A DNA stretch of 14,610 nt from JAZDEY01 sp043808325 [NCBI: Candidatus Eiseniibacteriota bacterium] (GTDB taxonomy: Bacteria; Arandabacterota; Arandabacteria; Arandabacterales): positions 1 to 14,610 of the forward strand of contig JAZDEY010000080.1 of NCBI GenBank assembly GCA_043808325.1, written 5' to 3'. The notes under the pieces are model-generated. The model made no database searches and was not told the origin of the DNA. It saw nothing but the letters and a program-made list of their open reading frames with translations. Of the stretch, positions 273 to 14,610 are shown piece after piece; position 1 is the stretch's first letter; the number at the start of each line of letters is the position of its first letter. Both the position numbers and the translations under genes were made by a program.

Positions 273-2798
273 TTAGATCTTGATTGTTCGATACAGGATG
301 AAGATCTCGCGGTAGACTGTGAGGGCCGCTGGCGAAGCCACGTTGCGCCCAAGTGGCGGCCCAACCACCCCCGCGCTATAACGGAACGAATCCAGGACGA
401 CCATCACATTTCCCCTACCCACTTTTCTGGTCACGGTCCCCGGGCCTAGGTCGCCAGGGGCGCTCGATGCCGGTGGCGACCCAGCCCCGTATCGCCCGAC
501 CCCGTATAAGTTGAGCGCGGGAAGGGTTGTCGAGGTTGAGACCAGATCCATCTGCAAGGCAAATGCATTCAGAACCTGGTTTGCCGTCGATTGGGAATTG
601 ATTACCGTATCGAGCAACACAAGCCGTCCGCCGCCGCGAACGTAATTCGCGACGCGGGTGATATCTGACCTGCTGAAGGCGCGAACCGGATTCACAATGA
701 CAAGGGCAAGTGGCCTGCACCTCGCAATATCTGTGGGTGATCCTGCCCGGGGATAAAGTCCCATCCTTTGAGCGCACATGTAGAATTCCTCAAACTGTTG
801 CCACATGGGTTTGGGAAACGCTCCAAGGTAGTTGAAGAACGATGCGCCGGAGTGGTCCGTATCGAACAGCACTCTCGGAAGCGGCGCCCTCTCTCTGACC
901 GGTCCGTAGGCATGCGCGTTGATCTGCGCTGTCGCAAACACACCTGCGCACAATCCCGCAAGGAATACCAGTCCGAACCGGGCGAACCACAACCCGGAGA
1001 CGCTGGCGCGGGGGGCGCACGCGAGCGACGCCCCAACGAGCGCCCCTGCCAGAAGGAGGCAGGCGAACCGGGCACGAGGATACTTGACGCCTCGACGGTT
1101 GAGGTAATCGATGAATCCCAGAACCAGCTCGGCCTTGCCCGGACTGAACATGCAGAAGTTGGAGAAGCAGGTGCTGTCGGTAAAGAGCAGCACTCTGCCC
1201 TTGCCATATTTCTTTGCTCCTGCCTGGAGAAAGATCCCGAACCTGTCCTTGAGGTCGAACGTGATGTTGCTGAAGAAGTTCGGGTGGCCGTAGTCGACGT
1301 CTTCACTTCCCAGTCCGTAACCCACCATCACAGGTTCGATGAGGGGACCTCCTTCGATCGTGCAGGAGGTCAGGAACTCGAACCGGCGGACGTCGCGGAC
1401 CGCGGGATGGAACCAGAAGCTCGGCGGCTCGTAGGTCGACAGAGCCGTCGTCTCGAGGTCGAAGGTGTCGTCGAGCCGGAAACGCATCCCGAATAGTGAC
1501 GCGATGGAATTGAGATACGTTGACATGCCGAAGAGATTGGTGTGGTCCCCGATCAGGAGTAGGCCACCGCCCTGCTCGACAAACCTTACAATGGCTGTGA
1601 TCTCGCTGCCGGTGTAGGGGCCGGTCGGCGTCTTGATGATAAGAACATCGGTGGTGTCGAGCGCATCTGCCAGATTTGTGGGCTCGGTGCCCACACCATA
1701 GAAGTGTCCCAGGTAGTCACGCAAACAGAAATAATTATACTCGGCCCGTATGCCAAATGAGGTCGTATCGAACCTGTCCCGCGTCCACTCCCAATCGGCA
1801 CGGGTTTCATCAATCAACACCCTCCCAGGTTTGATCTGTCCCGGGTCGTTGAAGGCAAGCGCGAAGGCCAGAGCTATGCCCACCAGGGCCGGAAAGCCGA
1901 GTCTCAGGACATGGCTGCGCGCCAAGGCCTGCGAGCAGCATCGAGCGCCAGGATTCTGCCCGCCTGCCGGGGACGCCTGGTCCTCCAGAAAAGGAGAAGC
2001 ATAGGGGGGCGGCGGTACCTTTAAGATCAAGGCGAGAGGGAGCCATGAAATGATGGTGTAACTGTGTCGCCAAATGAGACTGCCATCTCCCAGTTCAGCC
2101 GCCAGGATCACCAGCGCCGCGAATCGGAGGATTGCGTAGGTCCCCAGCGTGGCAACAAGGCGGGTGGCGCCAAGTGCTGCCGCACGCAATCCGGCCGTGC
2201 CTCGCGCAAAGCACCCTACAGTCCCGAGCACCACGCTCAGAAACCAGAGATTGTAGCCTCCCAGAGCTTCGAAAGTGATTCTGGCCGTTTCAAGCCTGGT
2301 CCCTGTCCAGAGCGAAAAGCCCCCACCCACCAAACCTATGTCCGTCAAGGCGCGCCGCAAGAATTCCACGGGCAGCGTGAGCGGGATATCGTGAAGTCCC
2401 CAGGCAAAACGCCTCAGCACAAGTGACGAGGCGCCGCAGAGGATCAGGATCAGGGCCGACATTGCGACTGAGCCCGCAAGCCGCCGCCGTACGAGTCCCG
2501 GCCACAGGAGAAGCAACAGGCTCAAGCACGACGCTCCCAGGATTGCCCGCACACCATCCTTTGCCCCGAGCATCAGCACAAAGCCGACTGCGATTGCTGC
2601 GCCAAGATTGAGCCTCGACAGCCGCGCCGATTCCTTACCGGCCGACTCCCACCCCACCATGAAGAGCAACGCTCCGATGCCCGCGAGCACAGCCGCAACC
2701 CAGGCATTGGGGTGGGCCGAGAAATGCTCGCCTGTCGGCCACACCAGGCTCAGCAGAATTGCTGAAAGTGCCAAGCTAATTCTCTGACTGGCTCGCAT
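273..2798 (-). CDS. large membrane protein: degenerate exosortase-like N-terminal domain plus two GATase-like domains
   Basis: The product is about 841 residues from ATG at 2798. That start has GAGGGG six bases upstream; the in-frame TTG at 2804 lies too close to that SD. Residues 1-260 hold about seven or eight membrane helices. Near residues 178-247 the order and spacing resemble exosortases: FEALGGYN where exosortases have a catalytic Cys-Ser-Gly, then ILRFA with an Arg about 46 residues on, then WRHSY with a His about 20 further. The Cys is absent. A helix near 300-318 leads into a GATase-like domain (about 325-570) with TDVLIIKTPTG, EQGGGLLLIGDHTN and TDSTCFSN. Two more helices (about 578-625) precede a second such domain (about 640-841) with RPLALVIVNP and VRGGGRLVLLDT. 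The gene overlaps the upstream 822-residue gene by 23 bp, which implies translational coupling. The fold comparison is from memory; function is unknown. Confidence 0.85.
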   Translation of the reverse strand: MRASQRISLALSAILLSLVWPTGEHFSAHPNAWVAAVLAGIGALLFMVGWESAGKESARLSRLNLGAAIAVGFVLMLGAKDGVRAILGASCLSLLLLLWPGLVRRRLAGSVAMSALILILCGASSLVLRRFAWGLHDIPLTLPVEFLRRALTDIGLVGGGFSLWTGTRLETARITFEALGGYNLWFLSVVLGTVGCFARGTAGLRAAALGATRLVATLGTYAILRFAALVILAAELGDGSLIWRHSYTIISWLPLALILKVPPPPYASPFLEDQASPAGGQNPGARCCSQALARSHVLRLGFPALVGIALAFALAFNDPGQIKPGRVLIDETRADWEWTRDRFDTTSFGIRAEYNYFCLRDYLGHFYGVGTEPTNLADALDTTDVLIIKTPTGPYTGSEITAIVRFVEQGGGLLLIGDHTNLFGMSTYLNSIASLFGMRFRLDDTFDLETTALSTYEPPSFWFHPAVRDVRRFEFLTSCTIEGGPLIEPVMVGYGLGSEDVDYGHPNFFSNITFDLKDRFGIFLQAGAKKYGKGRVLLFTDSTCFSNFCMFSPGKAELVLGFIDYLNRRGVKYPRARFACLLLAGALVGASLACAPRASVSGLWFARFGLVFLAGLCAGVFATAQINAHAYGPVRERAPLPRVLFDTDHSGASFFNYLGAFPKPMWQQFEEFYMCAQRMGLYPRAGSPTDIARCRPLALVIVNPVRAFSRSDITRVANYVRGGGRLVLLDTVINSQSTANQVLNAFALQMDLVSTSTTLPALNLYGVGRYGAGSPPASSAPGDLGPGTVTRKVGRGNVMVVLDSFRYSAGVVGPPLGRNVASPAALTVYREIFILYRTIKI

Positions 2799-5244
2799 AG
2801 GCAACCCCTCGTTTCAACCGGTCGATAAGCTCACCCACGAACACGATGTTCTGGCTGTTGGCATTTCGCTCGCCCTCGAGATTCCCATCGAGGAAGAATC
2901 TGCCGTCGCCCACCAGGGTGAAGCTTCCCTTGCCGTAGCGCCTGGTCACGATCGTCGGGTAGCCGAAGGCGGACGCCAGCACCGTGGTATCCGCGACAGC
3001 AGCGGCCGCTGTCCCATCGGCCTGGCCAGCCGACTCGCAACCTGCCCAGGCCAAGGCCCAGGCATCCTTGTGTGTGATCCGGGCATTCGGGGCCCCGTTA
3101 CCGAGCGGCACGTTCTCAATCGCAAACCCCAAGCGGTCGAGCAGCGCCCCGCACGGCTGGGGCCTGGTATAACCCTGCGACAGGATCAGGTTGCCGCCAC
3201 TTTCCATGTAATCAAGCAGCCTTTCGACGTCTGTGCTTCCGACGCGTGTCGGACTCACGATGAAAAGGTAGTCGCCTTCGGCGGTCCAATCACGGCGTGA
3301 GAAGGCAGGCCGCGCAACTACGCCCATACGTGCAAGGCAGTTGGCGAGCCCCCCGAGCGATGCTTCGCTAAAAAGCGAAAGGCTCACGGCAGGTCTGAGA
3401 GAGAAATCGATCAGCGCCGTCTCTTTGCCGAAGCTCAGTTGATCGGTCCGATCGCAGCTGTGTGTGCCACCGGATAGAACCCAGCCAACCGCATTCGAGA
3501 CAAATCCTTGCGATAGCAGAAGTGCCCCGTTTTGAAATGGGGATGTGTCCCCAAATACTAGGACCCGTCCCTTGCCGATATTCTCAGCAGCAACTAGAAC
3601 CAAGTCGCCAAGGGCCTCGTCTCGGTCGTGAGTAAGGTTACCCAGGAACGCGCCGGGACCGCCGTTCAGCGTGTCGCCCGTATCGGCGAAGCCGTACCTG
3701 CCGACAACGATCGGGGATGCCGGAGACTCAATCGCGAGAGATGCCCCAACCGCGATCTGAAGCCGGAGTTCCTCCGGCACCGTAGCTGCACACCCCGTCG
3801 TGGGCTCCCAGATCGGACCCGCAGTCACCGGATGCCTTCGTATCCCCAGGCATCCTTGCCAGTGCTCTCGCGTGGGCACTGCCGAATCGAAATTAAACCG
3901 TATGTTCGTGAAGGAAAGGACGCTGTTCAAAGGCTCTCGCGACCCGGCAATGTTGGTGTGATCCCCAAGCACTAGTAACCCACCACCCGACTCGACAAAG
4001 TGCCGAAGCATCGATATCTCGTCCTGGCATAGGCGTGTGGTTGGATTGATAAAGACCACAAGGCCGACCGACGAGAGCAGCTCAGCCGTGATCGTCCCGT
4101 CGGCGATCGAGTCTCTGTCATGCCCGGTTTGTGCCGCCCGGTTCGCGTGTTCCCCCCTGGATTTCACTTCCACGATCTCACCCCCGGCCTCCATCACGCG
4201 GCGCTGAAGAGAGCGCCTGAAGAGACCAAACATGCCGGAGTTCAGAAGCCCTGCCCTTTCGGCGCTCGGGACTTCCCAGTCAAGCAGACCTTCGGAATAG
4301 AGGGCAACGGACGGTCTCGCAGAAAACCGGAACGCCTGGGCTGAGCCCGACTCTGATTCGGCGATGCACAGGATTCCGGCCGCCGTGAGCGCCAGGGAGG
4401 CTGCGAGCACCCTGGATCGCAACCGGGTTCGGCCGCCCGCGCCGGTAGCCGACGCGATAGTCGCACACGGACCAGATCCCCTTGTCACCACAATCTTGGC
4501 GTCTGCGTCCCGGCCTGCCATGACCTTCGAGGCCAGAATTGCGACCAACTCCATGGACCCAAGCTGACAGACGCATATCTTGAGGGCCGTAACAGGCGTG
4601 AAAACCGTGAGGATCACCTGGACCACGGCAAAACCCGCAGCTAGGATCCCGATCAAGGCGATGGTGCCAGCCGCGGATCTACGAAGGACGACAGCCAGAC
4701 CCACAAATATTGAACCAAGAAGGTATATCGCCAGACCCGATGCCCAAATCCCAAGCGGCGCGTGCGCAGGCGAGATAGCTACCATGATGTGCTCCAGCAG
4801 GAACCACGTCCGGTCACTTCGCTCGTAACCGGCGAGGGCAAGAGCGTATGCGAGCGAGGCCAGGTGCATAACGAGGAAGCAAGCAACCTTCCCGGCACTG
4901 CGCGTGAAAACACCGCGTCGCTGCTCCAGGAAGTAGAGAAAGCCGAAAAACCACGAAATCAGAATGAGCCGGGCCACGGGATGCCCCACTCTGAGGGAAA
5001 CATACGCGAAGCTCGCAAGGCAGACCAGTAAGCCGGCCCTTGTGAGCCTCCCTCGGCGCCAGCCATGGCAGGAGGTACCTAGAAGCGCGAGCCATGCTAT
5101 CCAGGCCAACCAGGTATCACACCAGTCGGACAGGATCAGCACGGAGTCCGATGCCAGGAGCAAAACGGCCGTCGCAAGCAGGCACTTGACCGCGATTTCG
5201 AATCGCCGGAGTGCGCCTTCCGCCACCACGTCACCACCCCCCAC
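2776..5244 (-). CDS. large membrane protein with two GATase-like domains, architecturally related to its downstream neighbour
   Basis: The product is 822 residues from GTG at 5244. GTG codons at 5229 and 5226 follow a G-rich GGGGGGTGG and are likelier starts; an in-frame stop lies just upstream of 5244. Residues 20-245 hold about seven membrane helices, and a further helix lies near 278-295. An extracytoplasmic alpha/beta domain follows (about 310-590) with LVVFINPTTRL, ESGGGLLVLGDHTN (DHT at 428-430) and VFGDTSPFQN, then a second one (about 612-822) with DYLFIVSPTRV and ESGGNLILSQG. These motifs match the downstream gene in kind and order, so the two probably arose by duplication and divergence and may act as a pair. 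Glycine-rich strand-turn motifs of this type occur in GldG/DUF4350-like glutamine-amidotransferase folds. No nucleophile elbow Cys is evident, so a binding role fits better than catalysis. The exosortase-like Arg and His of the neighbour are not evident here. Confidence 0.85.
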   Translation of the reverse strand: MGGGDVVAEGALRRFEIAVKCLLATAVLLLASDSVLILSDWCDTWLAWIAWLALLGTSCHGWRRGRLTRAGLLVCLASFAYVSLRVGHPVARLILISWFFGFLYFLEQRRGVFTRSAGKVACFLVMHLASLAYALALAGYERSDRTWFLLEHIMVAISPAHAPLGIWASGLAIYLLGSIFVGLAVVLRRSAAGTIALIGILAAGFAVVQVILTVFTPVTALKICVCQLGSMELVAILASKVMAGRDADAKIVVTRGSGPCATIASATGAGGRTRLRSRVLAASLALTAAGILCIAESESGSAQAFRFSARPSVALYSEGLLDWEVPSAERAGLLNSGMFGLFRRSLQRRVMEAGGEIVEVKSRGEHANRAAQTGHDRDSIADGTITAELLSSVGLVVFINPTTRLCQDEISMLRHFVESGGGLLVLGDHTNIAGSREPLNSVLSFTNIRFNFDSAVPTREHWQGCLGIRRHPVTAGPIWEPTTGCAATVPEELRLQIAVGASLAIESPASPIVVGRYGFADTGDTLNGGPGAFLGNLTHDRDEALGDLVLVAAENIGKGRVLVFGDTSPFQNGALLLSQGFVSNAVGWVLSGGTHSCDRTDQLSFGKETALIDFSLRPAVSLSLFSEASLGGLANCLARMGVVARPAFSRRDWTAEGDYLFIVSPTRVGSTDVERLLDYMESGGNLILSQGYTRPQPCGALLDRLGFAIENVPLGNGAPNARITHKDAWALAWAGCESAGQADGTAAAAVADTTVLASAFGYPTIVTRRYGKGSFTLVGDGRFFLDGNLEGERNANSQNIVFVGELIDRLKRGVAYASQSEN

Positions 5245-5305: not shown

Positions 5306-5593
5306 TCAGGGTTTGGACGCTTGCTCCTCACGCCGCACCGCTGCCTGCTTCTTGCTGAGAAAGAGCGCGATTACGAACAGGGCGATCCCCGTGAGGATCC
5401 GGTATACGGGTGGTGCTGTGAAGACAACGACCAGCCCGATTGCCGTGACCACCACTATCAAGAGAACCGCCTTGGCAATTAGGCTGCGTTCACGAGGTCC
5501 GCTGCTTTCTGTGTAGCCTACATACGTCCCGATGATGCCACCGAGAAGCCCCGCAACAGAGCCAACGATACTTCCGACCACTGCTAAGTTCAT
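5306..5593 (-). CDS. small three-helix membrane protein with glycine-zipper first helix
   Basis: The product is 95 residues from ATG at 5593, which has a perfect AGGAGGT seven bases upstream. A GTG three codons earlier lies inside that SD and is rejected. Helix 1 (about residues 3-27) has Gly at 7, 11, 15, 19, 22 and 26, a glycine-zipper pattern suited to close helix packing or oligomerisation. A polar turn containing GPRER follows, then two strongly hydrophobic helices (about 41-60 and 66-82) and a basic, hydrophilic tail. From memory, a Gly-rich helix followed by GPRER is seen in small bacterial membrane proteins of unknown function. The gene lies 61 bp upstream of the 822-residue gene, so cotranscription is likely. 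Function unknown. Confidence 0.8.
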   Translation of the reverse strand: MNLAVVGSIVGSVAGLLGGIIGTYVGYTESSGPRERSLIAKAVLLIVVVTAIGLVVVFTAPPVYRILTGIALFVIALFLSKKQAAVRREEQASKP

Positions 5594-5662
5594 ACTGGGC
5601 ACCTCCTTCGAATCTCCTGTGACCTATGCGTCCGCTACCACATGCCAATTGCCGGGGCAGGC

Positions 5663-5713: not shown

Positions 5714-6184
5714 TCAAGGCTGGTAACAGTTTCTGGTCAAGCTGGTCGATGGAAGGGGATCCACAGCATTGGTCTGTCCCCCACCACGCCTGCAGCCCGA
5801 GCCGCAAGCAGAGGCCCCGTAGCATGCCGACCCCACGCAGAGAGTCCCCACGCAGGTACTGCCGGCGCATGCGCTGCCCACACAGCCACTGCCCAGGCAG
5901 GAGCTTTCAAGACACGCTGAACCCAGGCACTCGCTGCCCAGACAGGCACTACCGATGCACACACTGCCCAAACACGCACTGCCGATGCACAGGCTCACCG
6001 GCTGGAGACTTGCCGGCCCCCCGTTGTCATCCGCGACATCCGCGACCGGTCGGGGCCCTGCCTCCCACTCGGCCAGGGTCGCCGCGAGTCTTGCCTGGTA
6101 CAGCGGAGAAACCGGATCTCCACCCAGCACCGTGCCGCACAGCATGAAGATGATACCCGTTACCACCAATCCGATGCGCATCAT
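5714..6184 (-). CDS. secreted protein with twelve tandem Cys-x-Gly-Ser-x pentapeptide repeats
   Basis: The product is 156 residues from ATG at 6184, which is preceded by a long SD-like tract (GAGGGGAGGTGG). The GTG at 6193 overlaps that SD, and ATG at 6181 is also possible. Residues 1-22 form a signal peptide, with likely cleavage near VLG/GDP; the Cys at 16 is not in a good lipobox. A spacer of about 40 residues follows. Then comes the repeat block: Cys at every fifth residue from 66 to 121, mostly as CLGSA, CIGSA or CVGSA, followed by Cys 127 and 131. The tail contains GCRRGGG and ends NCYQP. Read as A-C-L-G-S, the units loosely fit the pentapeptide-repeat pattern, and twelve would make about three turns of a four-sided solenoid with Cys ladders. 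Other possibilities are a disulfide or metal-binding wall protein, or a precursor peptide that is modified. The gene has its own strong promoter and heads the block of membrane genes. Confidence 0.8.
   Translation of the reverse strand: MMRIGLVVTGIIFMLCGTVLGGDPVSPLYQARLAATLAEWEAGPRPVADVADDNGGPASLQPVSLCIGSACLGSVCIGSACLGSECLGSACLESSCLGSGCVGSACAGSTCVGTLCVGSACYGASACGSGCRRGGGQTNAVDPLPSTSLTRNCYQP
5810..5989 (-). repeat. 15-nt tandem repeat, 12 units, within the Cys-repeat gene
   Basis: Twelve in-frame 15-nt units encode Cys-x-(Gly)-(Ser)-x. They are diverged at the DNA level, with TGC, TGT and varied Gly/Ser codons, while Cys stays at the first position of every unit. Codon drift with Cys invariant suggests selection on the protein and not a recent slippage product. 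Confidence 0.85.
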
Positions 6185-6215
6185 CCTAACCACCTCCCCT
6201 CATCACCACGCATCC

Positions 6216-6391: not shown

Positions 6392-9340
6392 TCAGAGCTT
6401 GGCGCCGACTTCCTCGGGAATCTCGCCTACGCCGAGCTCCACTGTTTCCATCAGCCGCTCGAGGTCAATCTTCTCGAGCACGCCCAGGAAGGCCTCGACG
6501 ATCACGGGGTCAAACTGAGTTCCTGAGCAGCGCTTGACTTCATCGATCGCATTCTGAAGAGTCCGTTTGCGTTTGTACCATCTATCGTGAACCATTGCGT
6601 CGAATGAATCCGCGACACATAGTATGCGTGAGCCGATAGGGATTCTGTCACCACTGAGCTTGTGCGGGTATCCCTGGCCGTCCTCGCGCTCGTGATGATA
6701 CGTTATCATCTCGACGACCTGCTCGGATGATCCCGCGCGTGCCGCGATTGCCGCACTCACGTCCGGATGGGTCCACTTGTACTCCTCTTCCTCCTGTTCG
6801 TTCAGGATGGCGGGCTTCCTCAGGACCTGGTGGGGCCAAGCCACCTTACCTAGATCGTGGCGGATCGCCGCCTCCTCGATCTGCTCGACGAAGGACTCGC
6901 TCTTGCCCATTTCCCGGGCAATCGCGGTGGCTATCTCAACCACACTTGCCGAGTGGCCTCCGGTATAGCGGTCCTTCTCATCGACCGCCCGAGCGATCGA
7001 TCTGATCAGGCTTTCGTTGGTCTTGAGAAGCTCAAGGCGCCGCAGGAGCGCAAGATGGCGCCAGAAGGTGGGGAACAGGAAAAGTGGAATCGCCGCCCAA
7101 AGGCCAAGGAGACTGGTGCTCATCAGTATGGCGTAGCCGCAGACCGCGTAAGTCAGAGGCTCGGGAAGCACTTTTAGGTAGTTGCGCTGCCAGACGCGAC
7201 CCGTCGAGAGCCCGTGGACCGAAAGCAACATCGACTGCACCATGGTCTCGAGAAAGTAGAAGGCAGTGACACTCGCGACGAACGGGATGATTTCAGCCAC
7301 CGTCCCCTGGAGTGCCAAGCTTCGGGATACATACCGCCCAGCCATGTAGGCAACCCAGGCACCGCTTCCCGCCAGCATCAACAGGAAGCCATAAGCCGAT
7401 GCGGTGGAAAGCTGCGACTCAAGAGCCTTGGTCTTGATTAGGAACGCTATGCCGCTGTTTCGCTTGCGGCCGGCAGCAGAGGAGGTCGAATTGGCCAGCC
7501 CGCCGTTTCCGGCATTGTCTCCACACCTCTTACGGGATCCCTTCGCAGCTCCATTCCCGTAACCGTTACCGTATCCGTTACCATGGCCATTCCCGTTTGC
7601 TCCATCAGCGGCACCATTCGCCCCATTGATGCTTGCCATGGACTTGGAGAGCGCATTTGCGGGATCGAGCAGCAACGCCCACCCAATCAGGGCGAAGCCG
7701 AAGATCACTGCGTAGACGGGCCCTCCGGCCAGCGATATCGCAAGCACGACGGCTGACGAAGCGGATACGTATGCACCCTTGGGGAGCCTCACTGGCCTTA
7801 CGGCTGCGAGCCCGAGCAGAAAGAGGAAGAAGAGGCTCCCCAGGGCGGTGCTGGCAACTTGTCCGGATTTGACCCCAAGGGACAGCGGAACACCCAGTTT
7901 GCCGAAAACGATAACGATTGCGGCCGCGACCGCTATGATGGACGATCCAATGAGCATCGATCTGCGCTCTTTCCACGCTTTGGGTAGCACGACGACCGGC
8001 CGTGGATGCGACCTATATAGCCTTAGCTTGATTTGTCGTTTGTCCGGCGGACCGAAGCCCCTGGCCACTTTGGCCGAGAGGTCGGGCCGACCCATCAGCT
8101 CAAAGAGGAAGAAGGCCACCGTAGCATCGAGAGAGCGGCCTGCATCCCGGGCAATCTCATCGAGTGCCTCGTTCTTAGTGAGCGGGCGGTTCCGATGTGG
8201 GCGCGGATTGGTCATGGCGACAAAGGCCTCCGCTACCTTGATCACTGCAGCCTCAATCGGGATCTGCCGCGCCTTGAGGCCCTGCGGATAGCCCGAACCA
8301 TCGGGGCTTTCGTGATGGCTCCGCACAATCTCCGCAACAGCCTCCATCCCGACGACTTCTCTGAGGATCCTCATGCCGCTTTCGGGGTGCTCCCTGATTT
8401 CGCTCATCTCGGCATCCGTAAGCAGTGTGGGCTTGAGGACCGTATCTCTGTCGACGGCTATATAGCCGACGTTGTGGAGCATCGCCGCATGTTCGAGAAG
8501 CTCGAAACTCCGGTAGGGGAGCCTCATCTTATGGCCAAGCGCGATGGCAAGCTCAAGCACATGCTGGGTCTCGCCCTTAAGGTGCGGCATGTTGCCGTCC
8601 CTGGCCATCCGGAGGGCATCGACCAGCTGGACGAATGACGACTTGATGCGAACATGGTCGCGGACCGTGAGAATCCCGATCAACCCGGTCCCGATAAGGA
8701 TTCCGATCAGGAGGAAGCCTCCGTTAAGGTAGAAGACCGCCAAGAGGAATGCCCCCAGCGGCGTGCTCCACGAGACAAGAGCCTTCCAGCCAAACACGGT
8801 TCTCCAGGTGTCGGATGGGTTAGTACCATCACGTAGCCACAGTCCCAAGGAGAGTATGACGACGCTTGTGATGAAATACGCAGCATGCGCGGCCAGTAGT
8901 CGGATCAAGACCGACGGGCTGAGTGCGACCGTCAGGCAGCCCACTTGCCCACTATGTCCCCAGAGAACGTAGCCAGCTGCCATGACACAGAAGGCCCATT
9001 TCGCCGAGTTAGATCCTAGCCGCTCAAGATCCGTTTTCAGATTCCGCGTTCGAGAGGCCAGTGTGGTCACAATTCCGCACGACCAACCCGCGACTAGAGC
9101 GAGATTGGTGCCGTAGAGAAGAAGCATGGCCAGAAGGGGGAGGGGGCTAATATTGAGAGTGGTAGTTCCCGCGACACCACGAATAGGGAGTGTCGCGACG
9201 ATCATAGCCAGCCCGAACCAGAACAGGGCAGATGGAGTCACACGCAGCTGATCCAGCACACTCGGGACTCTCGACAGCACTAAGATTGCTGCCGATACCC
9301 CTGTGGCAACTGCAAATATGAGAAATCTCTTCTTGGCCAA
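6392..9340 (-). CDS. tandem membrane/HD-GYP protein, probable cyclic-di-GMP phosphodiesterase
   Basis: The product is 982 residues from TTG at 9340, which has GGAG six bases upstream and is followed by AKKRFLIF and a membrane helix. Starts at 9355 (GTG) and 9409 lack an SD. In order: membrane helices (about 5-225); a first HD-GYP domain (about 255-430) with HNVGY at 289 where HDxGK is expected, HP at 318 and HHESPDGSGYP at 342-352; a second membrane block (about 465-560); a Gly-Asn-rich linker (about 570-615); more helices (about 648-760); and a second HD-GYP domain (about 775-960) with HDLGK at 828-832, HP at 858 and HHEREDGQGYP at 882-892. HD-GYP domains hydrolyse cyclic-di-GMP with a di- or tri-iron centre. 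The second domain keeps the motifs needed; the first has lost the HD aspartate and may be regulatory. The protein looks like a duplicated membrane plus HD-GYP unit. A weak promoter and a palindrome lie just upstream. Confidence 0.9.
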   Translation of the reverse strand: MAKKRFLIFAVATGVSAAILVLSRVPSVLDQLRVTPSALFWFGLAMIVATLPIRGVAGTTTLNISPLPLLAMLLLYGTNLALVAGWSCGIVTTLASRTRNLKTDLERLGSNSAKWAFCVMAAGYVLWGHSGQVGCLTVALSPSVLIRLLAAHAAYFITSVVILSLGLWLRDGTNPSDTWRTVFGWKALVSWSTPLGAFLLAVFYLNGGFLLIGILIGTGLIGILTVRDHVRIKSSFVQLVDALRMARDGNMPHLKGETQHVLELAIALGHKMRLPYRSFELLEHAAMLHNVGYIAVDRDTVLKPTLLTDAEMSEIREHPESGMRILREVVGMEAVAEIVRSHHESPDGSGYPQGLKARQIPIEAAVIKVAEAFVAMTNPRPHRNRPLTKNEALDEIARDAGRSLDATVAFFLFELMGRPDLSAKVARGFGPPDKRQIKLRLYRSHPRPVVVLPKAWKERRSMLIGSSIIAVAAAIVIVFGKLGVPLSLGVKSGQVASTALGSLFFLFLLGLAAVRPVRLPKGAYVSASSAVVLAISLAGGPVYAVIFGFALIGWALLLDPANALSKSMASINGANGAADGANGNGHGNGYGNGYGNGAAKGSRKRCGDNAGNGGLANSTSSAAGRKRNSGIAFLIKTKALESQLSTASAYGFLLMLAGSGAWVAYMAGRYVSRSLALQGTVAEIIPFVASVTAFYFLETMVQSMLLSVHGLSTGRVWQRNYLKVLPEPLTYAVCGYAILMSTSLLGLWAAIPLFLFPTFWRHLALLRRLELLKTNESLIRSIARAVDEKDRYTGGHSASVVEIATAIAREMGKSESFVEQIEEAAIRHDLGKVAWPHQVLRKPAILNEQEEEEYKWTHPDVSAAIAARAGSSEQVVEMITYHHEREDGQGYPHKLSGDRIPIGSRILCVADSFDAMVHDRWYKRKRTLQNAIDEVKRCSGTQFDPVIVEAFLGVLEKIDLERLMETVELGVGEIPEEVGAKL

Positions 9341-9388
9341 GCTGCACTCCGTCACAATGAACACAAGAACACGCGTGCTACAACGTGC

Positions 9389-9404
9389 AAGTGGTGTGCC
9401 ACTT
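9389..9404. promoter_or_regulatory. palindrome at the predicted transcription start of the HD-GYP gene
   Basis: AAGTGG-TGTG-CCACTT is a perfect inverted repeat with 6-bp arms and a 4-bp centre. It lies 9-24 bp downstream of the proposed -10 (9413-9418) and about 50 bp before the TTG start. The position suits a repressor site or a leader hairpin. No regulator gene is in view. Confidence 0.4.
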
Positions 9405-9412
9405 AGCAAATG

Positions 9413-10111: not shown

Positions 10112-11218
10112 GTGAAGCGAGCGATATCGTATGGTGGGTGGGTCTCAAACATGGATCTGACCAGTTCTACGATTCTCCTGAGTATCCTGCTTATGTGGGG
10201 CTCGGCATCGGCCAGCTACCATGACGGTGGAGTCATTGATGACTTATTCTTCTATCGTCAGCCGAGCGCGAGAGCGGAGGCGATGGGCAAGGGTGGGGTG
10301 GCGATGGTCGACGACCCATCGGCCAGCTTCTACAATCCGGCGAGCCTCGGCCGGATGAGAGGAATCTCGATCTCTGGGTCTTATGGGAGTCCATTGTACT
10401 GGTTCGAGGATACCAAGTACATATTCCTGGGCAGCGGCGTCAGGGTCGGCAGGTACGGAACCGTCGGGATCAGCAGCTATCGCGTCGACTACGGGGGCTT
10501 CGCGGAAATCTGCTCGTCGGGCGAGGAAATGGAGGATTTTGAGGTAGCCCTCGAGACCTTGAGCCTCGCAACCGACCGGCTGTACGGGCTAGATATAGGT
10601 ATGAACGTGAATCGGATCCGTATGCTGGGAACCTGTCTTCGCGAGGACCCGACCGGCTACTCGGCAGACATTGGAGTCTCAAGAGATCTCTTGCTGCAAG
10701 CCGGGAGTCGCGCGGAGCAGAGCCTGACCTTCGCCAGTAGCCTCTATAATGTGACGGATTCGAAGATTGACTTCTCCGGAGACTCTGAGGAGTTGCCTGT
10801 GATCGTCCGCCTCGGAACCGCTTACAACCTCACCTGGTTCAGCAAGTCCTTCCTGCCGGCCTTCAAGACCGCGCAGGGGCTGATCCATATCGAGTATCAG
10901 GACCTGTTGAACTCGAAGTATTACGGCGCCTTGAGGATAGGCGGCGAACTCCGCCTCCTGGAAATGCTCGCGCTCCGACTCGGCTATTACCGTGAGAGCC
11001 GTAATGACAATGATGATCCCGAGAACTACAAGGATGCCCTCACGGACGTGACCTACGGCTTCGGGATCGAGATTCCTCTTGAGAAGATGGTTGCGGCGAA
11101 GATCCCCCTCCGGGTCAAGTTCGATATGACCCGGCTCCAGCAGCCTGGTTTCCGCAAGGGGCCAAATCCGTGGCGCGACTTCTCAGTCTACTCGCTCAGC
11201 GCACGGTGGGGATACTAG
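10112..11218 (+). CDS. PorV/UPF0164-like outer-membrane beta-barrel protein
   Basis: The product is 368 residues from GTG at 10112, which has GGAGGT just upstream. ATG at 10151 would give a more compact signal peptide (MDLTSSTILLSILLMWGSASA) and remains possible. After the signal peptide (cleavage near residue 35) come SARAEAMGKGGVAMVDDPSA and FYNPASLGRM, the N-terminal signature of PorV/PorQ and UPF0164 barrels, related to the FadL fold. Many alternating amphipathic strands follow, and the protein ends in YSLSARWGY; a terminal aromatic residue is typical of BAM-assembled barrels. In known cases PorV works as an outer-membrane shuttle of the type IX secretion system, but many UPF0164 relatives have no known role and no type IX genes are in view. 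It seems monocistronic. Confidence 0.85.
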   Translation: MKRAISYGGWVSNMDLTSSTILLSILLMWGSASASYHDGGVIDDLFFYRQPSARAEAMGKGGVAMVDDPSASFYNPASLGRMRGISISGSYGSPLYWFEDTKYIFLGSGVRVGRYGTVGISSYRVDYGGFAEICSSGEEMEDFEVALETLSLATDRLYGLDIGMNVNRIRMLGTCLREDPTGYSADIGVSRDLLLQAGSRAEQSLTFASSLYNVTDSKIDFSGDSEELPVIVRLGTAYNLTWFSKSFLPAFKTAQGLIHIEYQDLLNSKYYGALRIGGELRLLEMLALRLGYYRESRNDNDDPENYKDALTDVTYGFGIEIPLEKMVAAKIPLRVKFDMTRLQQPGFRKGPNPWRDFSVYSLSARWGY

Positions 11219-13698: not shown

Positions 13699-14082
13699 GT
13701 GAAATCAGGTGCGGCGAAAGATATGAGTGAATTACTTAACATAGATGATCGAGGAGATCGGTTCAGGAGAGCTTTCTCGGTAATCAGGTCTTCCTGCCTT
13801 GTCTTGCTGTTTCTTCTGCCTCTGAATGCCTTCGCTCAGGCTCACCTCCTGAAGCAAAGACCCTTCCGTGCGACTGACACTGCACTATCTGGCGGCGATC
13901 ACATCTGCAACCTCAGAAGAGATACGAGCGAGAACGGAAGACCTGAACGGCTCGGCGATTACGTGCGAGTATGTGGAACCGTAGTCGCCGAGCCATCTAC
14001 CTTTGAGACCGGCGGATGGCTCTTCTGGGTGAGAGAGTCGCAGTACGGTCTGAGTCCATTTGTGCATCGCCGCCAGGGATAA
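13699..14082 (+). CDS. secreted OB-fold-like protein, apparently truncated
   Basis: The product is 127 residues from GTG at 13699, with GGGAG seven bases upstream; ATG at 13723 is an alternative. Residues 28-47 form a signal peptide (SCLVLLFLLPLNAFAQ). Near 85-119 GDYVRVCGTVVAEPSTFE and WLFWVRESQYGLSPF fit the first strands of a nucleic-acid/OB-type domain (V-x-V-x-G-x-V, then F-x-V-R-D). The frame then ends after HRRQG, too early for a full five-stranded OB barrel. Its 3' part overlaps, antisense, the end of a serine recombinase gene that enters from the right. The simplest reading is that an integrated element replaced the original 3' end. Expression and function unknown. Confidence 0.55.
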   Translation: MKSGAAKDMSELLNIDDRGDRFRRAFSVIRSSCLVLLFLLPLNAFAQAHLLKQRPFRATDTALSGGDHICNLRRDTSENGRPERLGDYVRVCGTVVAEPSTFETGGWLFWVRESQYGLSPFVHRRQG

Positions 14083-14610
14083 TCCCTTTGATTCGCAGGG
14101 TCCGGCCCTTTAGATGGACCCTACTGACCAGCAGGGTGAGGATCCGACGCTTGTTCTCGAAATCGCAGGATAGGCCATCCAGGCGCTTCCTTATCATGCC
14201 GCAGTAATGGACCACATCATCCCTGTCAACGGTGCCAGCCCCGTTTCCACCCACCTTCGCCATGATGGCCTGCTTCTCCTCATTCAGGCGCGTCCTCTTG
14301 TCACTGACCTTGGCGATCTGATCCCTCAGCTGGTCCTTGGAGATAACCTCCTCCCGATAGGCGTCAAGCATCCTGCCCTCTTCCATCCCAATGGCGGCCA
14401 ATCTCTTGTCTATGCGTTCGAGGTCTCCCTTAAGAGCCCCCTGACCCACCCTCGCCCTCTCGCTAAGCCTCCCGATCTGACTGAGTATCAGCTCCGGGTT
14501 GGCAACTGCTTCGCAGACCTTCTCCCACACGGCATCCTCAACCCATCTTGCCGTGACCGACCCACCTCGACACTGGCTCTTCAGGGGGAACGTGCGTGCC
14601 CTGTCACCAC
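13997..14610 (-). CDS. C-terminal part of a large serine recombinase (N-terminus outside window)
   Basis: The minus-strand frame is open from the right edge to TAG at 13997-13999, about 203 residues. It begins with the last Cys of a zinc ribbon (SQCRGGSVTARW), followed by VEDAVWEKVCEAVANPELIL, the typical segment after the ribbon in large serine recombinases. A coiled coil of about 60 residues comes next (LERIDKRLAAIGMEEGRMLDAYREE through NEEKQAIMAK), and then FENKRRILTLLVSRVHLKGRTLRIKGIIPG, the usual last strand region. About 20 further residues, rich in Arg and Ser, lie antisense to the truncated OB-fold gene. These enzymes integrate and excise phages, ICEs and transposons using a Ser nucleophile in the N-terminal domain, which is beyond the window. 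Confidence 0.9.
   Translation of the reverse strand, partial: GDRARTFPLKSQCRGGSVTARWVEDAVWEKVCEAVANPELILSQIGRLSERARVGQGALKGDLERIDKRLAAIGMEEGRMLDAYREEVISKDQLRDQIAKVSDKRTRLNEEKQAIMAKVGGNGAGTVDRDDVVHYCGMIRKRLDGLSCDFENKRRILTLLVSRVHLKGRTLRIKGIIPGGDAQMDSDRTATLSPRRAIRRSQR

Follow-up and report, generated by a model that had tools for sequence, protein, structure and literature searches.

A 14,610-nucleotide stretch of DNA, referred to throughout as the window, encodes on its minus strand a secreted-type protein with twelve cysteines at a strict five-residue spacing, in a neighbourhood that includes a tandem pair of DUF4350/GIFT membrane proteins. The array is conserved in the window's phylum with changes in length by whole units, and it is linked to the DUF4350 pair. 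Leader-bearing Cys-array proteins recur beside DUF4350 pairs in other phyla, where the arrays have other periods. The reading that we prefer, to which we give about an even chance, is that of an exported Cys-ladder protein that would be recognised by the GIFT pair via its mature N-terminal helix and assembled into a cross-linked structure.

The cysteine-array protein

The gene and the segments of its product are as follows.

5714–6184, minus strand: Cys-array protein gene, 155–156 aa from ATG codons at 6181/6184
6119–6181, minus strand: putative signal peptide MRIGLVVTGIIFMLCGTVLGG, read from the sequence; no lipobox by eye
6053–6109, minus strand: SPLY motif with a predicted helix, opening the mature protein (SPLYQARLAATLAEWEA...), from alignment A2 and the structure model
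5822–5989, minus strand: twelve five-spaced Cys forming the array, in units mostly of the form C-[LIVA]-G-S-x
5726–5806, minus strand: tail, with Cys at +6 and +10 past the array and the last Cys near the C-terminus

A further possible start, a GTG, is open at 6193, and Cys positions here are numbered from it. A purine-rich stretch that resembles a ribosome-binding site (GGAGGTG in the window) is located 5′ of the ATG, and seven homologous copies have one too. The mature protein begins SPLYQARLAATLAEWE and runs through a linker into the array. The twelve cysteines of the array occupy positions 69–124 and are followed by Cys130 (+6), Cys134 (+10) and Cys156. An earlier note on this DNA had described this run as residues 66–121, counted from the ATG at 6184, with two further cysteines behind it, and both statements are confirmed. 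In 100,000 shuffles of residues 25–159 the longest run of Cys at spacing five was 7, reached in a single shuffle, against the 12 observed.

The Cys codons of the twelve units differ solely at the third base (eight TGC, four TGT), and mismatches between units are concentrated at third codon positions (0.64, compared with 0.36 at first and 0.31 at second positions). This pattern indicates that Cys has been kept while the DNA drifts, in agreement with the earlier proposal of selection for Cys under codon drift. The AlphaFold model of the protein has a mean pLDDT of 45.4. It contains a helix at residues 26–41 (pLDDT about 55–72) and some short strands of poor quality; the array itself, at pLDDT 33–37, is not usable.

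We consider it vanishingly improbable that the array is an artefact, a tandem DNA repeat read in a chance frame. Public DNA was scanned for four units of C-[LIVMF]-G-(S, T or a few others)-x, and the identity between neighbouring matched units was compared. Nearly all matches are indeed near-exact repeats: the identity is 0.89–1.00 for 23 of 23 matches in the viral collection and 0.78–1.00 for 117 of the 120 matches listed, from at least 120, in the genome collection. The other three of those listed have diverged units (0.60, 0.62 and 0.64), as do the first four units of the window (0.62). These three, L155, L187 and L196, are true homologues and belong to the metagenome-assembled genomes GMC4.maxbin2.282, Meg22_1214_Bin_137 and Meg22_1012_Bin_348. 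Unit divergence, together with conservation of the frame, the gene start, the N-terminus and the tail, led us to reject the artefact. Further relatives of the array may exist beyond the matches listed in the genome scan.

Conservation in the window's phylum

Array homologues are present in six of eight genomes analysed from the window's small phylum, once as a fragment, and were not found in G005 and G008. The family comprises eight copies plus that of the window. Alignment A2 contains eight rows: the G007 copy, which ends at a contig end, was left out, and L155 is included only from past an in-frame TGA. The rows have 9, 9, 10, 11, 12, 12, 12 and 12 array cysteines at exact spacing, so members differ by whole units, and the Cys spacing seen in the window is kept by its homologues. 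In all eight rows the array is followed by the +6 and +10 cysteines and by one more, at +31 to +34. Each of the 79 units has Cys at position 1 and Ser or Thr at position 4; Gly fills position 3 in 60 of them, and Leu, Val, Ala or Ile are the usual residues at position 2 (Leu in 27, Phe in 4).

Complete members are 144–161 residues long with a hydrophobic N-terminus. Ser25, Pro26, Leu27, Thr35 and Trp39 are invariant among the full-length rows, and Thr35 and Trp39 are shared by all eight. The hydrophobic start common to the seven full-length rows upholds the secreted-type N-terminus that had been proposed for the window protein. In the homologue of G001:C176 (L155:225–686), a single in-frame TGA interrupts the conserved SPLF helix at a position occupied in relatives by Gln, Arg or the like; it may reflect a mutation, an assembly error or recoding.

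No Pfam, NCBIfam or PHROGs model scores over its cut-off for the window protein. A genome scan with exact 8-mers gave 116 candidate stretches, none with tblastn E ≤1e-3, a result limited by the BLAST low-complexity filter, which masked most of the array in a local test. Weak array matches occur in 6 of 282 sampled genomes outside the phylum; three are near-exact DNA repeats (identity 0.91–0.98), three have no five-spaced Cys run, and none is a diverged-unit array. A plasmid search gave 447 records at E up to 10, of which the 20 listed are stretches inside the first 57 residues with E ≥3, and the PDB sequence search gave one chain at E 0.12 (7wkk_I). Phage records contain no match to the window protein, and with no PHROG match we rejected a phage origin.

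Gene neighbourhood

On the minus strand, the gene order in the window is double HD-GYP protein, Cys-array protein, small membrane protein, and DUF4350/GIFT proteins A and B. The neighbours of the array gene are the following.

6392–9409, minus strand: membrane protein with two HD-GYP domains (PF13487, 9.6e-65), next upstream of the Cys gene
5306–5602, minus strand: small glycine-rich membrane protein, 98 aa
2776–5244, minus strand: DUF4350/GIFT membrane protein A, 822 aa (Pfam PF14258, E=4.9e-19; 13-row alignment A3)
273–2804, minus strand: DUF4350/GIFT membrane protein B, 843 aa (PF14258, 1.9e-11; PF09822, 1.2e-9; 10-row alignment A4)

The start of gene B overlaps the end of gene A, and the PF14258 scores of the two partners (69.7 and 45.0 bits) exceed the gathering score of 30.4. 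Eight of nine loci, the window among them, have a gene for a small membrane protein after the Cys gene, the other seven proteins being 17–22% identical to that of the window; a different ORF takes this position in G003. An HD-GYP gene, judged by sequence likeness, lies directly upstream in the window, G003, G004 and G006 and is absent from this position in the other four loci with visible upstream sequence. That homologues might keep the neighbour genes, a point raised by the earlier note, holds in part. Gene A is found downstream of the array in seven of nine loci (the window, G001:C176, G002:C76, G003, G004, G006 and G007; cut by the contig end in G003 and G006), and the second array copies of two genomes (G001:C42 and G002:C370) have kept the small membrane protein and lack the DUF4350 pair.

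Several other genes in these loci were noted. The second array copies (L261:7077–11219 and L187:3049–7192) adjoin, in addition to the small membrane protein, a gene that appears DNA-methylase-like by eye. About 4.5–5.7 kb upstream of the G001 array gene are genes that look like a thioredoxin-like lipoprotein and DsbD/CcdA (L290:2520–3739, by eye), a possible thiol-redox link. In the window, 10112–11218 on the plus strand encodes an outer-membrane protein resembling the PorV/PorQ family (NF033709, 79.9 bits, cut-off 90), a hint that the organism may have a type IX-like system. A 177-residue ORF at 13997–14530 on the minus strand has a weak match to phage integrase phrog_95 (1.3e-4) and is perhaps a C-terminal fragment of a recombinase.

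The DUF4350/GIFT partners

The AlphaFold model of partner B (843 residues, 10 sequences) has a mean pLDDT of 69.5 and shows helices preceding a GIFT-like domain. This domain, at about residues 325–575, matches IFT52 with a Z-score of 20.6 and an rmsd of 2.8 over 205 residues; other matches are site-1 protease (Z 18.2), ThuA-like proteins (Z 16.6) and chains of the oligosaccharyltransferase complex (Z about 16). The one domain fills the list of the fold search, which does not inform on the helical part. Partner B is alike in fold to the GIFT domains, named after GldG and IFT52, and differs from them by its helical N-terminal region and its gene context. The fold that the model shares with GIFT proteins is no indication of function. 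GIFT domains, which also occur in Wbp1, have been proposed as sugar binders (PMC7226087, accessible part).

The accessible part of PMC5898192 (section 3.2) assigns archaeal DUF4350 proteins, by prediction, to a secretion complex, with predicted S-layer proteins among their neighbours. The arCOG01314/DUF4350 complex, with a predicted role in secretion or membrane remodelling, has in common with the present loci a DUF4350/GldG-like extracytoplasmic domain and secreted or surface neighbours (PMC5898192, same part). The archaeal proteins have one C-terminal transmembrane segment and mostly vWA and AAA+ neighbours (PMC5898192, same part), whereas the proteins here form a tandem pair, are predicted to have many helices and mostly stand next to a secreted-type protein that contains Cys. 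Exosortase-like N-termini, suspected in the DUF4350 proteins from their motifs, matched no NCBIfam exosortase model, and we make no claim of them. In the accessible portion of the literature naming DUF4350, we found no substrate described for the membrane pair.

DUF4350 pairs in other phyla

Searches baited with the DUF4350 proteins alone, and not with the array, recovered further tandem pairs, some of them in the window's phylum, where they are of a second type, and the rest in four other phyla. Such pairs are rare: only 5 of 282 sampled genomes outside the phylum matched. Inside the other four phyla, matches to the protein A profile were found in 3 of 5, 1 of 4, 5 of 9 and 8 of 132 genomes. 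Loci were counted as assessable where the neighbouring sequence was visible (n=26, seven family loci included), leaving out G397, G527, G529, G165 and G291, which are at contig ends, and G054, where the match contains stops. A leader-bearing secreted-type protein with eight or more Cys accompanies the pair in 20 of the 26; one locus (G273:C182) has the leader with a broken reading frame, and five have no such protein. When the seven loci known from the array or the window are set aside, 13 of the 19 bait-only loci encode such a protein (8–156 Cys), one does so partially and five do not. These 13 divide into six with long regular arrays, four with less regular ones and three with only 8–10 Cys.

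No leader-bearing Cys protein was seen at the pair loci G007:C358, G273:C219, G398, G524 and G525. The ORF listings keep the longest non-overlapping ORF and may miss genes under longer antisense frames; a second scan of these five loci in all frames for Cys-rich or leader-bearing segments was again negative.

The period of the array differs among the relatives. Modal spacings are 6 in G144 (at least 504 residues, the fetched stretch ending inside the protein; 66 Cys), 7 in G059 (24 Cys; TDPxWC) and 10 in G201 (1657 residues, 141 Cys). In G526, G528 (two genes) and G530 (two genes), proteins of up to 1088 residues contain 92–156 Cys with modal spacing 6, and the highest count, 156 Cys past the leader, belongs to relative L360. 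The second type of the window's phylum (G001:C57, G002:C32, G004:C56 and G008) has 16–55 Cys, mostly preceded by Thr, at spacings of 6–7 with many exceptions. G395 and G396 (twice) have 8–10 Cys and no regular array. The G059 protein ends in a type IX sorting domain, TIGR04183 (2.1e-7; 30.8 bits, cut-off 23). For the window protein, the profile search reported no C-terminal type A sorting domain of type IX, and we rejected its membership among type IX secretion substrates. The Cys gene lies upstream on the strand of the pair in G059, G395, G396 and the second type; it is divergent from the pair in G201, G526 (with an ORF between), G528 and G530, and downstream in G144.

Some of these proteins have further features. 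The 1657-residue protein at L314:8337–13310 has about 110 ten-residue spacings in units like CxTNPxxDPx; its Pfam match to Extensin_1 (1.3e-47) is probably a low-complexity proline match. Second-type proteins (L285:5277–5894, L286:5087–5704, L287:1–615 and L289:4700–6115) end in [ED]RTTWG[RK]xKxxF, and unrelated secreted-type proteins near the second array copies (L187:7324–7767 and L261:11350–11793) end in [TN]TWGRLKALYDR; judging from the two endings, they may represent a shared C-terminal signal. In the phylum of G165, the DUF4350 pair is followed by two small proteins with a hydrophobic GGYxxGxxR-like stretch (L360:10807–11566 and L362:3177–3936), perhaps counterparts of the small membrane protein of the window.

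The SPL[FY] leader

The motif at the start of the mature window protein recurs in the leaders of the other phyla. SPL[FY], a test motif chosen after the proteins of the other phyla had been seen, is present in 11 of 12 pair-adjacent proteins of these four phyla (L311 being tallied although its frame is broken) versus 4 of 1773 control segments. These controls, drawn from unrelated loci, are not genes but stop-to-stop frames at least 150 residues long; of those with more than 4% Cys, 1 of 227 has the motif. The exact motif is found in 8 of the 13 bait-only loci, and variants include TPLF in L314 and SPAF in the second type of the window's phylum. The leader protein of G273:C182 (L311:7641–8288) carries an SPLF helix, but a Cys-rich C-terminal stretch, like that of L352, is found in another frame. 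A profile HMM of the window family's leader did not retrieve the leaders of the other phyla significantly, its best matches being control segments. The motif suggests shared ancestry of the tag, which is not proved because the leader HMM did not find the others.

Comparison with known cysteine-rich and five-residue repeat proteins

The earlier note knew of no standard family with this pattern. That statement stands in so far as no model scored over its cut-off; what it missed is a curated Cys-every-fifth family, the RiPP peptide CefA (NF038108), of which the window protein is not a member. CefA also gives a real precedent for the suggestion of a modified-peptide precursor, in which the SPL[FY] helix would be the leader, the array the core, and the cysteines would be converted to thioethers or other rings, as the name of CefA proposes. 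We regard this as unlikely. A short leader ahead of a Cys array does resemble the layout of a RiPP, and NF038108 matches 8 of 8 family members at E ≤10 (best 1.5e-4). The scores seen are below the 30-bit cut-off, however (window 9.2, L258 18.2, L259 17.0, G001:C42 23.3), and G002–G004, G006 and G007 have no match at E 1e-3. A signal peptide would, we infer, export the chain before cytoplasmic enzymes finish, and the relatives reach about 150 Cys.

Matches to CefA over the cut-off were found in 3 of 386 genomes and 1 of 14 controls, with an array ORF listed only for G230 (L375, 50.3 bits), the one CefA that we compared. CefA and the window family are alike in Cys at every fifth residue, in similar array length and in weak profile similarity. 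The L375 peptide is 80 residues long, has no evident signal sequence and no Ser/Thr at unit position 4, and adjoins a radical SAM/SPASM protein. This neighbour matches CefB NF038107 at 1.1e-57, below the 600-bit cut-off, and other maturase equivalog models, all under their cut-offs; its SPASM domain is over its own. Unlike CefA, the window family has a signal-peptide-like start, the SPL[FY] helix, 144–161 residues, Ser/Thr at position 4 (79 of 79) and a DUF4350/GIFT pair, and no radical SAM gene was found nearby by motif. A CX3CX2C scan of the longest ORFs (150 residues or more) at 33 pair or family loci found a single ORF (L363), ferredoxin-like by eye. The scores, the longer chain with its signal-peptide-like start and the lack, by motif at the loci scanned, of a radical SAM neighbour such as the one CefA locus has led us to reject membership of CefA.

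A pentapeptide-repeat β-helix in which Cys merely fills the core, with no cross-links, is very improbable. It would account for the five-residue period, and a weak Pfam Pentapeptide_2 match (E=0.15) and the short strands of the poor model point the same way. Pentapeptide repeat proteins (PF00805/PF01469) share with the array the period and the use of small and hydrophobic residues, but their consensus has Leu or Phe at the centre (PMC8145042, accessible part). The arrays of the window family have an invariant Cys and no such centre, with Leu or Phe beside Cys in 31 of 79 units. PF01469 scores 12.4 of the 26.4 bits of its gathering threshold, no other pentapeptide model matches at E ≤1, and in the sister arrays the modal spacing is 6, 7 or 10. 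On the score and the consensus we dismissed membership. A solenoid such as the earlier note suggested, or a right-handed quadrilateral β-helix, is hypothetical for the array, whose model is not usable (pLDDT 33–37).

An extracellular binder of metal or sulfur, whose regular thiols would hold soft metal ions or a metal-sulfide surface, is quite unlikely. The very high Cys content, up to 156 past the leader, is what such a binder might show. Metallothioneins typically use CxC and CxxC, and Cys–Cys spacings of 3 or less are rare here, 22 of 1052 in 22 proteins, which counts against close chelation; we rejected a metallothionein-like assignment on this ground. The Cys region of the window protein, moreover, contains no His, one Asp and two Glu.

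Proposed system

In the cross-linked-ladder reading, the signal peptide would carry the Cys-array chain across the inner membrane, and the conserved SPL[FY] helix at the mature start would serve as a recognition tag for the DUF4350/GIFT pair. Outside the cytoplasm, the pair would take up the chain, modify it or hand it on. With one Cys and one Ser/Thr per short unit, the array could stack into a regular ladder, cross-linked through Cys, most likely by disulfides, to give an extracellular or envelope-bound structural element. We infer that the tag is recognised, that this member sits at the surface, and by what chemistry it is cross-linked. The type IX sorting domain of G059 is a hint of surface location.

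Several observations weigh against the ladder. The array model, at its low pLDDT, gives no structure, and the array lengths of 9, 10, 11 and 12 Cys are not confined to the multiples of four that a complete quadrilateral β-helix might want. The linkage has exceptions: five of the 26 pair loci have no such protein, G001:C42 and G002:C370 have no pair, the three proteins of G395 and G396 have few, irregular Cys, and in six loci (G201, G144, G526, G528 and G530 among them) the Cys gene is not simply upstream on the strand of the pair. The failure of the leader HMM and the SPAF and TPLF variants count against the tag.

A wider reading, which we offer tentatively as a possibility, is an undescribed envelope-building system in at least five bacterial phyla. 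Tagged Cys-array proteins with up to about 150 Cys would be exported and read by a dedicated GIFT pair, and would then polymerise extracellularly, giving a ladder or fibre held together by covalent cross-links. This reading takes in the family-specific periods of 5, 6, 7 and 10 and the SPL[FY]-type tag (SPAF or TPLF in some), and would make the products a prokaryotic counterpart of keratin-like Cys-rich materials. A literature search by title and abstract opening, with most subscription papers outside its coverage, found no description of the system. Its components, Cys-rich exoproteins and DUF4350 proteins, have loose relatives, and its function is predicted.

Should the linkage hold, a concrete candidate substrate, marked by a recognisable tag, could be assigned to the DUF4350/GIFT pair, and overlooked Cys-array exoproteins could be found via their neighbours and not via their masked low-complexity sequence. 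The question then arises of what these bacteria make extracellularly from as many as 150 thiols at even spacing. Regular ladders of thiols with a defined period would, in addition, be interesting materials.
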